The notes under the pieces were generated by a model that was given only the letters and a program-made list of their open reading frames with translations, was not told the DNA's origin and did not search any database. A stretch of 44,959 nucleotides of DNA, taken from contig JAKUNM010000005.1 of assembly GCA_022451865.1 (NCBI GenBank), positions 1 through 44,959 of the forward strand. Direction: 5' to 3'. Shown here piece after piece: positions 37,946 to 40,468 of this stretch (its first letter is position 1; each line of letters starts with the position of its first letter). This DNA comes from Dehalococcoidia bacterium. Its GTDB lineage: Bacteria > Chloroflexota > Dehalococcoidia > UBA2979. Both the position numbers and the translations under genes were made by a program.

Positions 37946-38503
37946 TCAAACTACTAAGAGTTCCTGTTCTTTTTGCTTACCAAGTTGTTCTAATTTTTCA
38001 ATCTGATCTTGCGTGATTTTTTCTATTTCATTCTCAATTTGATGGGCTTCATCTTCAGAAAAATTACCATTTTTAAGAGACTGTTTAATTGTATCTAAAC
38101 ATGTTCTACGAGAATTTCGTACTGAAACTCTCGCATCTTCTGTTTTTTTATGGAGTTGCTTTACCATTTCTAAGCGTCGTTCCTCTGTTAGAGGCGGAAT
38201 GGGTAGACGTATCATCGATCCATCACTTTGTGGTGTTATACCTAGTTCGCTTGTCTGCAAAGCTTTCATGATCGGCTCTATCGCAGCTTTATCCCAAGGT
38301 TGAATAGTTATTAATTGTGCTTCTGGTGTTCCTAGCGTAGCTAGTTGATTTAAGGGCATTTTTTGCCCATAGTGTTCAATGCTTAACTTTTCAACCAAAG
38401 AACTATTTGCTCGTCCGGTTCGAATACTATTCAGACTATTTTCATACGATTCATATGCTTTATTGCTACGTTCCTGCATATCTAATACTATTTCACGATC
38501 CAT
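37946..38503 (-). CDS. frr: Ribosome recycling factor (Frr)
   Basis: With EF-G it splits the ribosome after termination. The 185-aa protein shows the standard pattern: SIRTGRANSSLVEKLSIEHYG, PLNQLATLGTPEAQLITIQPWDKAAI, IRLPIPPLTEERRLEMVKQLHKKTEDARVSVRNSRR, then a helical C-terminus. GGAGTG lies just before the ATG. It follows tsf directly, with 33 nt between. In most bacteria pyrH lies between tsf and frr; it is missing here. Confidence 0.96.
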   Translation of the reverse strand: MDREIVLDMQERSNKAYESYENSLNSIRTGRANSSLVEKLSIEHYGQKMPLNQLATLGTPEAQLITIQPWDKAAIEPIMKALQTSELGITPQSDGSMIRLPIPPLTEERRLEMVKQLHKKTEDARVSVRNSRRTCLDTIKQSLKNGNFSEDEAHQIENEIEKITQDQIEKLEQLGKQKEQELLVV

Positions 38504-38536
38504 TTGTCACTCCATAGATAAAATCTTTGAAATAAA

Positions 38537-39037
38537 TTATGTTCCAAGTTCAAATCGTATAAAACGTGCGACTTTAATGTTTTCCCCAGTCTGACCTATC
38601 GCACTTTGGATTAAATCATCGATATTTTGGCTGTTGTCTTTAATGAAAGTTTGAGTCAACAGAGCATTGGATTCTTTTGTTCCTGAAAAATCATCTGGGA
38701 CATCTTCAACAGTGAGTGCAAGAGGATTCATCGCAGCTACTTGCATGGCTAAATCATGTGCTAAAGATTGAAAAGTGTCTGTACGTGCAACAAAATCTGT
38801 TTCACATTGAAGTTCAATAAGTGCACCAATTTTGCCATTACCATGAATATAAGATTGAACTAACCCTTGTCCAGTTTCCCGGTCGGATCTTTTAGCGGCA
38901 GAAGCTATACCTTGTTCACGTATTATTTTTTTTGCGGTATCAAAGTCGCCCTCAGCTTCTTCAAGAGCCCGCTTGCTGTCCATAATGCCAGCACCTGTTT
39001 CTTCTCTTAGCCGCTTTATTTCATCAGTAGTAACCAC
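38537..39037 (-). CDS. tsf: Elongation factor Ts (Tsf), short form
   Basis: It releases GDP from EF-Tu. The N-terminal UBA-like part reads EIKRLREETGAGIMDSKRALEEAEGDFDTA, and the core follows (IGALIELQCETDFVARTDTFQSLAHDLAMQVAAM). The protein is only ~166 aa against ~280 in E. coli; the second subdomain and coiled coil are reduced, as in other short bacterial EF-Ts. I place the start at GTG 39037, which fits the normal N-terminus and has a weak GGA about 8 nt upstream; TTG at 39055 would add six residues. Confidence 0.93.
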   Translation of the reverse strand: MVTTDEIKRLREETGAGIMDSKRALEEAEGDFDTAKKIIREQGIASAAKRSDRETGQGLVQSYIHGNGKIGALIELQCETDFVARTDTFQSLAHDLAMQVAAMNPLALTVEDVPDDFSGTKESNALLTQTFIKDNSQNIDDLIQSAIGQTGENIKVARFIRFELGT

Positions 39038-39066
39038 ATTAAAATCCGTTCTCAAAAAATAATTAT

Positions 39067-39963
39067 TTATTGTTCCGTAGAATTGCTCTCAACTTGTACC
39101 TGTTGTTCATTGCCTTCATTAACAATTTCCTCTGTAGCTATAACTGATGCCTCTGGACTTGATGCCTCTGGACTTGATGCCTCTGCTGCCTGTTGAAATT
39201 CTTGTTCAACATTGCTTACAGCTATTCCTTCACGAATAGCTTGCGAGACCAATTTAGTCATCAATTCAATTGCACGAATTGCGTCGTCATTAGATGGAAT
39301 TGGGTAGTCAATTAGGTCTGGATTAGCATTAGTGTCACACATTGCTATAACGGGTATTTTTGCCCGATTTGCCTCACGAACAGCGATCTCTTCTAGTGCC
39401 GGATCAACTATAAATAGTGCACCCGGTGTACGTTCTAATGATCTTAATCCTGAAAAAGATCTAGTTAGTCTCTCAAATTCTTTTTGCAACATTACACGTT
39501 CTTTTTTGGTTTGTTTTACAGATTTAGTCTCAATATCGCTATTTGAAGCATCCTCTTCTGAATCAGAGGGAATGTTTTCATCATTAGTAATTGAATCAAA
39601 TCCTGAGCTGAGTTGATTATAATACTCAATGCGTTTGGACAATGTTGAAAAATTCGTTAAAGTTCCTCCTAACCATCGATTGTTTACATATGGCATTCCG
39701 ATACTTTCTGCTTCCCTTTGAATAATCATACGTGCTTGTTTCTTTGTGCCAACAAAGAGAATTTTGTCGCCGCTCGCTGATACTTCCTTAATTTTTTCAA
39801 GTGCAGCATCAAGCCTTACCACTGTTTGCGCTAAATCGATAATGTGGACTCCGTTACGTTCTCCAAAAATGAAAGGACGCATATGAGGATTCCAGCTACG
39901 AGTCTGATGTCCAAAATGTACACCTGACTCCAGTAATTGTTGCATAGTTATAGTGTGGGACAC
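39067..39963 (-). CDS. rpsB: 30S ribosomal protein S2 (RpsB) with acidic insert and tail
   Basis: S2 binds 16S rRNA on the small subunit and is needed for S1 attachment. The start TITMQQLLESGVHFGHQTRSWNPHM and ERNGVHIIDLAQT, VGTKKQA, NRWLGGTLTNF, PGALFIVDPALE and IPVIAMCDTNANPDLIDYPIP are all diagnostic. Two oddities stand out: an acidic Ser/Asp/Glu-rich stretch of about 25 residues in the helical hairpin (around residues 125-155), and a Ser/Glu/Ala-rich C-terminal tail of ~60 residues with a short tandem repeat. The start is GTG at 39963 with CAGGAG six bases upstream; an in-frame TTG at 39990 lacks such support. Confidence 0.96.
   Translation of the reverse strand: MSHTITMQQLLESGVHFGHQTRSWNPHMRPFIFGERNGVHIIDLAQTVVRLDAALEKIKEVSASGDKILFVGTKKQARMIIQREAESIGMPYVNNRWLGGTLTNFSTLSKRIEYYNQLSSGFDSITNDENIPSDSEEDASNSDIETKSVKQTKKERVMLQKEFERLTRSFSGLRSLERTPGALFIVDPALEEIAVREANRAKIPVIAMCDTNANPDLIDYPIPSNDDAIRAIELMTKLVSQAIREGIAVSNVEQEFQQAAEASSPEASSPEASVIATEEIVNEGNEQQVQVESNSTEQ
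39145..39189. repeat. 15-bp tandem repeat in the rpsB tail
   Basis: The unit TGATGCCTCTGGACT occurs at 39145-39159 and 39160-39174; a third copy from 39175 keeps only its first 11 bases. In the protein it encodes two copies of a Ser-Pro-Glu-Ala-Ser unit plus a partial one, in the disordered C-terminal tail of S2. Replication slippage in a weakly constrained tail is the simplest cause. Confidence 0.85.
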
Positions 39964-40002
39964 CTTGTACTCCTGTATTTTCTCTTCCAACGTATAAATT
40001 TA

Positions 40003-40021
40003 CCTTAACTGGTAGTTAAGG
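40003..40021 (-). promoter_or_regulatory. Hairpin in the rpsB leader
   Basis: CCTTAACT (40003-40010) and AGTTAAGG (40014-40021) form a perfect 8-bp stem with a 3-base loop. On the minus strand it lies about 40 nt before the rpsB GTG and ~23 nt after the transcript start expected from the TATAAT at 40056-40051. No T-run follows, so it is not a terminator. It may be an S2-binding autoregulatory element or an RNA-stability element; no known motif is recognised. Confidence 0.5.
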
Positions 40022-40050
40022 CAGACGTCAGCTTACTTATTCGAACTGAC

Positions 40051-40078
40051 ATTATATGTCTTGAATTGGCTCATGAGC
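40051..40078 (-). promoter_or_regulatory. Candidate rpsB promoter with a palindrome over the -35 region
   Basis: On the minus strand TATAAT at 40056-40051 is a perfect -10 box. The -35 zone is occupied by the 10-bp palindrome GCTCATGAGC (40069-40078) and has no good -35 hexamer, suggesting an activator- or repressor-controlled promoter. The palindrome is flanked by AATTG (40064-40068) and CAATT (40083-40087), extending the symmetry. It would drive rpsB-tsf-frr and the genes beyond. Confidence 0.45.
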
Positions 40079-40109
40079 TAGACAATTAAGAATATTTTTA
40101 GTCAATAAT

Positions 40110-40129
40110 TTTAGAAATTAATTTCTAAA
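40110..40129. repeat. 20-bp perfect palindrome upstream of rpsB and fmdB
   Basis: TTTAGAAATTAATTTCTAAA is a perfect palindrome with no spacer, in the centre of the 238-bp divergent gap. It lies about 55 bp upstream of the rpsB -10 box and ~70 bp before the fmdB ATG. It may be a binding site for a dimeric regulator. It is A/T-rich but contains two symmetric G/C positions, which makes chance less likely. Confidence 0.6.
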
Positions 40130-40146
40130 TCTTGCAATATATAAAA

Positions 40147-40158
40147 AATCACGTGATT
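40147..40158. promoter_or_regulatory. 12-bp palindrome AATCACGTGATT upstream of fmdB
   Basis: AATCACGTGATT is a perfect palindrome with a CACGTG core, 44 bp before the fmdB ATG at 40202. TTGCAA (40132-40137) and TATGAT (40158-40163) nearby could be -35 and -10 boxes with a long, 20-nt spacer; if so, the palindrome would overlap the promoter and could be an operator for fmdB-dtd. Confidence 0.4.
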
Positions 40159-40201
40159 ATGATCGATAGTGATAAAAGATTATTTTATTGAAGGTGTGAT
40201 T

Positions 40202-40468
40202 ATGCCAACCTATGAATACCTACATTCACCTCCCCGTAAACGTGGATGTCCAAAACAATTTGAACTGGTACGTAAAGTAATGGAGCGTGATGATCCAGCC
40301 TTATGTCCAAAATGTGGCTCCTTAAGTGAGCGCCAGCTATCGATGCCTGCCTTATCCTTTAGAGGAAACGGATTTTACGTAACTGATTCCAGAAATTCTT
40401 CTACTAAAAATAATAAAAGTGATGATTCTCCCCAGAAACCTCATCATACCGATGCTAAAAATGACTAA
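40202..40468 (+). CDS. FmdB-family putative zinc-ribbon protein
   Basis: An 88-aa protein starting MPTYEYLHSP, the start typical of FmdB regulatory-protein domains. The second zinc-ribbon knuckle is intact (LCPKCGS). The first, usually YxCxxCG directly after MPTYEY, is altered: the segment reads PRKRGCPKQFE with a single Cys and a short basic insert. Zinc binding is therefore uncertain. The C-terminal third (GFYVTDSRNSSTKNNKSDD onward) is polar and probably disordered, as in relatives. GAAGGTG lies before the ATG. dtd begins on the base after the stop codon. The function of this family is not established. Confidence 0.8.
   Translation: MPTYEYLHSPPRKRGCPKQFELVRKVMERDDPALCPKCGSLSERQLSMPALSFRGNGFYVTDSRNSSTKNNKSDDSPQKPHHTDAKND

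Follow-up and report, generated by a model that had tools for sequence, protein, structure and literature searches.

A covarying RNA element upstream of rpsB in Dehalococcoidia, probably a ribosomal protein S2 leader

The 238-base-pair (bp) gap between rpsB, the gene of ribosomal protein S2, and an fmdB-like gene was analyzed in a 44,959-nucleotide stretch of DNA from a Dehalococcoidia bacterium (contig JAKUNM010000005.1, assembly GCA_022451865.1). This whole stretch is called the window below. The gap holds a structured RNA element that is probably an S2-limiting switch. The source assembly is 1.40 Mb in size and belongs to the Chloroflexota; its nearest named relatives are "Chloroflexi bacterium" SAT228, SP4356, and a "Dehalococcoidia bacterium". 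The gap extends from the rpsB start codon GTG (39961-39963, minus strand), which is preceded by AGGAG, to the ATG of the fmdB-like gene at 40202. An alternative TTG start upstream was ruled out because the sister genome G001 has an in-frame TAA. A preliminary description of this DNA had called the gap the largest in the window. This was borne out, also in a mechanical tiling of open reading frames with the longest starts, where the gap was still the largest (178 bp; next 138 and 119 bp). The same description had placed four symmetric elements in the gap, and all of them were found there: a hairpin with 8-bp arms (40003-40021), GCTCATGAGC (40069-40078), TTTAGAAATTAATTTCTAAA (40110-40129), and AATCACGTGATT (40147-40158).

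The features of rpsB and its upstream RNA, in which P1 and P2 are the two stems, are as follows.

40051-40056, minus strand: candidate rpsB -10 hexamer TATAAT, identical in three genomes of the genus and 18 nucleotides (nt) upstream of the element; a sequence match only
39983-40032, minus strand: putative rpsB leader RNA element, whole model of 50 positions; matched by both covariance models at one place in its own genome, found upstream of rpsB in 34 genomes, with covariation
40025-40031, minus strand: 5' strand of P1, 7 nt; from the fold starting at the predicted transcription start, with changes on both sides in 7/7 P1 pairs
40024, minus strand: 5' side of the internal loop, C in 29/35 alignment rows
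40001-40023, minus strand: P2 hairpin of 9 pairs with the loop UACCA, which includes 40003-40021; changes on both sides in 6/9 pairs
39994-40000, minus strand: 3' side of the internal loop, AAUUUAU (consensus AAUYUAY); columns 49-55 of the 35-row alignment, where conservation is highest
39987-39993, minus strand: 3' strand of P1, 7 nt; from fold and covariation
39970-39974, minus strand: Shine-Dalgarno sequence AGGAG, 12 nt past P1; read from the sequence
39067-39963, minus strand: rpsB (ribosomal protein S2), GTG start; Pfam PF00318, 285.6 bits
38537-39055, minus strand: tsf (EF-Ts), next gene of the presumed rpsB operon; Pfam PF00889

A stretch upstream of rpsB is common in the family and reads GCTGACGTCTGCCTTAACTACCAGTTAAGGTAAATTTATACGTTGG in the window; the hairpin at 40003-40021 is its middle. 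The element consists of the 7-bp stem P1, an asymmetric internal loop in which usually a C faces a near-invariant AAUYUAY, and P2 of variable length. Across the 35 rows, columns 49-55 showed A in 35, A in 34, T in 34, C in 32 and T in 3, T in 35, A in 35, and T in 29 and C in 6. In another family of the class, f33, P2 is several pairs shorter and the AAUYUAY loop is unchanged, which points to the loop as the recognized part. The position of the element is constant, just upstream of the rpsB Shine-Dalgarno sequence, with one copy per genome. The spacing between P1 and the ribosome binding site is 12 nt in the window and smaller in many relatives.

Two covariance models were used: R1, trained on 14 rows of the element's own family, and R2, built from 31 rows. 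A 24-row MAFFT alignment put P1 wrongly in rows with an extra base, and a 14-row subset was taken for the first model. Three spurious matches (L132, L124, and L014) were removed by a rerun at an expectation value (E) of at most 0.01 without L014. Since the structure was drawn from the 14 alignment rows, sequences outside them are the better test. The 35-row alignment (34 genomes plus locus L033; 34 distinct sequences) is biased towards the model, to which it had been fitted; in it, 93.2% of 515 cells were paired, compared with 76.1% in shuffles, and 13/16 pairs had changed on both sides, compared with 7.7. Its covariation score was 0.461, against 0.181 in shuffles and at most 0.092 with the strands slid, and 0/500 shuffles reached any of the five measures. 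The 14-row MAFFT alignment (13 distinct sequences), which was not fitted to the model, gave a score of 0.412 against 0.224, reached by 0/500 shuffles; 8/16 pairs had changed on both sides, a value reached by 15/500 shuffles. Within the genus, a C-G pair of P2 is replaced by U-A in G002, a compensatory change. Variable columns numbered 5/50 in the leader versus 41/188 in the rest of the gap.

R1 matched 21 of the 44 family genomes, seven of them outside its training set. All gave a single match but G015, where a weak additional match (E = 0.016) is not by rpsB. Whole-genome scans covered 393 genomes of the class and 400 of the phylum; 15 candidates per genome were scored, and the matches are thus a lower bound. 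Over the class, R1 matched 31 genomes at E ≤ 0.01, and ten of these do not belong to the family. In nine of the ten, all from another family of the class, rpsB follows the match immediately and in the same direction, and the S2 proteins of these nine share 44-51% identity with that of the window. The remaining match, in G120 (E = 0.007), does not stand before rpsB and was taken as chance. S2 residues ~116-148 (rpsB 39067-39963) form a region of variable length, in which the S2 matches were split in several family genomes.

With R2 at E ≤ 0.05, 35/393 class genomes matched, and in 34 the match immediately precedes rpsB and shares its strand. These 34 matches, with E up to 0.0013, comprise 21 in the element's own family and 13 in f33, among which G176, G288, and G320 belonged to neither training set. 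Around the other match, in G092 (E = 0.009), the 3-kb locus lacks an S2 gene. The phylum search matched 7/400 genomes at E ≤ 0.05, three of them with rpsB leaders; the loci in G092, G410, G712, and G717 (E 0.009-0.05) are without an S2 gene. These were likewise taken as chance. Among 87 rpsB loci, R2 found the element in L007-L010, L024, and L033; the loci of other phyla gave no match at E ≤ 0.1, and L062 reached 0.23 far from rpsB. A scan of viral contigs for rpsB was without hit or without value.

On a tree of 48 S2 proteins, the presence of the element required 4 changes, compared with 11.7 when shuffled. The element therefore appears to be old and clustered, with losses or replacements. 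A look-alike rpsB leader was seen by eye in a distant member of the Chloroflexota, REEB247 (L014:2911-2964), and folds into P1 and P2; R2 missed it at E ≤ 5. It was counted as a carrier in the tree and in no other count. Given this look-alike, the element may extend beyond the counted genomes.

The candidate -10 hexamer at 40051-40056 would place the transcription start near 40044. In folds from this predicted start, P1 and P2 were part of the minimum-energy structure of all three genus sequences. A stretch CGAGAACAG between promoter and P1 is common to many family genomes (e.g., L098, L103, and L090). Because both stems covary over 34 distinct sequences and the hairpin at 40003-40021 sits between a predicted promoter and the Shine-Dalgarno sequence, it seems to act as RNA as far as the evidence goes.

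Downstream of rpsB, the gene order is tsf, frr, undecaprenyl diphosphate synthase, cytidylyltransferase, and dxr. In many bacteria pyrH sits between tsf and frr; it is absent there in the window (37946-39055). With 172 aa, the encoded EF-Ts is short, and its Pfam domain was matched in two stretches. The features on the fmdB side of the gap are as follows.

40069-40078, no strand: GCTCATGAGC, where the rpsB -35 element would be; arms kept and center variable in the genus
40110-40129, no strand: 20-bp palindrome TTTAGAAATTAATTTCTAAA; not symmetric in either sister genome, present once in the assembly
40130-40158, plus strand: conserved block with TTGCAA and AATCACGTGATT, 2/29 columns variable in the genus; candidate fmdB promoter
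40202-40468, plus strand: fmdB-like small zinc-ribbon gene; Pfam Zn_ribbon_8, 30.6 bits, under the curated 34.4

The preliminary description proposed that the palindromes are binding sites of several dimeric regulators and suggested a comparison with shuffled sequence. When the gap was subjected to 20,000 dinucleotide shuffles, at least three perfect palindromes of ≥10 bp occurred in 1.2% (P = 0.012). Any palindrome of ≥12 bp occurred in 12.6%, any of ≥20 bp in 0.075% (P = 0.00075), and any 8-bp-arm hairpin with a loop of 3-8 in 5.4%. The number of palindromes, above all the 20-mer, is unusual for the gap. The gap was picked out post hoc, which weighs against this significance, and the window as a whole was near the shuffled expectation (60 palindromes of ≥10 bp versus a mean of 52.6; 14 versus 12.9 of ≥12 bp; 2 versus 3.4 of ≥14 bp). 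The conservation that the proposal called for was partly present in the three genus genomes. The arms of GCTCNNGAGC and the core ATCACGTGAT were kept in 3/3, which is weak evidence with three genomes this closely related, and the 20-mer was broken in both sisters. The two central bases of GCTCATGAGC vary within the genus, and AATCACGTGATT has one base changed in one sister. Neither GCTCATGAGC nor GCTCNNGAGC was seen in the upstream sequences of the other family genomes that were read. A genome-wide search, limited to exact copies and not extended to degenerate ones, found each of the three palindromes once in the assembly, and therefore there is no regulon. The pairs of the hairpin, for their part, covary as RNA across families while the length of P2 changes. 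That several dimeric regulators bind the DNA between rpsB and fmdB is thus highly improbable. With three genomes compared, one of the three palindromes might still bind a regulator; leaving the leader hairpin aside, they look like chance or ordinary promoter sequence. The block at 40130-40158 has about an even chance of being the core promoter of the fmdB-like gene (TTGCAA, 17 bp, GATTAT) or an operator. Its variable columns (2/29, versus 46/238 in the whole gap) and its orientation and distance to the start codon speak for this; the small number of genomes speaks against it, as does the promoter scan of the region, which gave 7 matches versus 6.8 in shuffled sequence and did not include the TTGCAA/GATTAT pair. 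Such a promoter is compatible with an RNA leader on the other strand. The four elements do not make up one system. Of the proposal that the space is probably used, the part that stands is that the gap is in use and concerns the expression of a ribosomal-protein gene.

The best reading is that 39983-40032 (minus strand) is a lineage-specific S2 leader of Chloroflexota (Dehalococcoidia), that is, a structured rpsB-tsf 5' leader through which excess S2 would repress rpsB-tsf translation. We give this reading a probability of roughly 0.7. Free S2, perhaps with S1 as in Escherichia coli, would recognize the internal loop held between P1 and P2. Once bound, the complex would impede loading of the 30S subunit at the ribosome binding site next to it. 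Output of S2, and of EF-Ts via coupling, would fall when S2 exceeds the available 16S ribosomal RNA (rRNA). The other palindromes of the gap would play no part in this mechanism. A translational operator is favored because the ribosome binding site lies close behind P1 and the site scan listed no terminator-like site for the gap. Several observations weigh against the reading. The element was not matched in 23/44 family genomes, 19 of which have an S2 match, and so part of the family does without it or has a replacement; S2 was matched in 40/44 genomes and the element in 21/44, and in 6/15 of the most complete ones. For a longer RNA of 106 nt, begun further upstream, the fold preferred in the window was another hairpin that uses the 5' strand of P1, a competitor that requires bases upstream of the predicted transcription start. 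Folding energy was not decisive, with z from -0.80 to -3.14 for ten single elements and -0.61 for the 90-nt leader. Outside the genus the evidence for the promoter is weak, with a -10 match of ≥5/6 in 8/35 rows, where 3.9 were expected. The Shine-Dalgarno sequence is not sequestered by P1 or P2.

The ligand itself is the other point at issue, for S2 was assigned from the downstream gene, its one tie to the element. The leader could instead be bound by S1, EF-Ts, another ribosomal protein, a ribosome-associated RNA-binding protein, or a small molecule; tsf in the same operon fits such a view. So do the results on the S2 sites of 16S rRNA, which show no mimicry. No 16S gene was detectable in any of the three genus genomes, and five family 16S genes were used instead. 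In the five loci bearing them, no leader-model match was better than E = 0.34, and no AAATYTAYG-like stretch with at most 2 substitutions was found in h26 of five or in h35-37 of four of the genes, that region being unlocated in the fifth. Mimicry of the ligand's rRNA site occurs in some ribosomal-protein leaders, not in all. Another ligand is nevertheless considered unlikely. In all 34 matches up to E = 0.0013 the gene that follows is rpsB and never a different one, a pattern more in keeping with self-control than with a signal shared among genes. The rpsB leaders described so far react to S2 (with S1), according to excerpts of PMC10931766.

The known systems are compared here from excerpts of the respective papers. 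In E. coli, S2 together with S1 autoregulates its synthesis via the rpsB leader; the operator excludes the ribosome binding site, a conserved bulge in it is essential, and the mechanism of RNA recognition by S2 is called unclear (PMC10931766). The rpsB motif combines a junction and a pseudoknot and has been described from Proteobacteria, Cyanobacteria, and some Firmicutes (PMC2704228). Eckert and Weinberg (2020) reported 20 ribosomal-protein leaders from comparative genomics, and Table 1 in the excerpt of PMC7247131 has no S2 ligand and no Chloroflexota, with rpsB only in the Bacteroidia L13 leader. No literature report of a Chloroflexota rpsB leader was found in a comparison that did not take in the gamma-proteobacterial and 224-motif surveys, so that novelty was not fully checked.

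In Rfam 15, no family fits the leader at gathering or permissive thresholds. The t44 motif (RF00127) gave no match in the window at gathering threshold and 0 matches in the leader region at E up to 10. By Rfam it was also absent in loci L088, L089, L090, L092, and L095 and in the leader-bearing Chloroflexota loci L118, L122, L137-L140, and L145; the control L065 scored 46.0 bits (cut-off 44). In L092, a 17-bit match to Rev44 (cut-off 178) overlaps the leader on the opposite strand; it was taken as chance, as were microRNA-type matches elsewhere in L095. The rpsB upstream regions of L016, L020, L026, L029, L039, L043, and L048 (Actinobacteria, Acidobacteria, and Deltaproteobacteria) looked t44-like by eye (GGCGGAGG...AACC); when L016, L020, L039, L043, and L048 were scanned, only L048 matched, at 29.5 bits, below the cut-off. 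Spirochaete rpsB upstream regions (L046, L052, L060, L070, L071, and L081) share CAGAATTTCCGG...GAGACGTAG-like stretches, which may be another, unrelated rpsB leader.

The element resembles the t44/rpsB motif in being a structured 5' leader element of rpsB(-tsf) that would be recognized away from the ribosome binding site (PMC10931766 and PMC2704228). The t44 motif differs in having a three-stem junction and a pseudoknot to a 3' extension, whereas here there is one rod of two stems and no junction. The two coaxial stems cover the conserved element, P2 ends in short variable loops, and no pseudoknot search was made. On balance, we lean towards a minimal S2-binding RNA of independent origin: one rod of ~45-50 nt, old enough for two families of the class to share it, with the asymmetric loop AAUYUAY as a new S2 site and an architecture unrelated to that of the Proteobacteria rpsB motif. 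Such an element would be a small single-loop target for how S2 reads RNA and, for the marine Chloroflexota, which are abundant and uncultured, a regulatory element that can be tested. Like the leaders of Eckert and Weinberg, it is a lineage-specific covarying RNA that directly precedes a ribosomal-protein gene, with the ligand assigned from the gene (PMC7247131), and the covarying structure is consistently found at that place (34/35 class matches). If this structurally different Chloroflexota leader at rpsB is true, control of S2 arose more than once.
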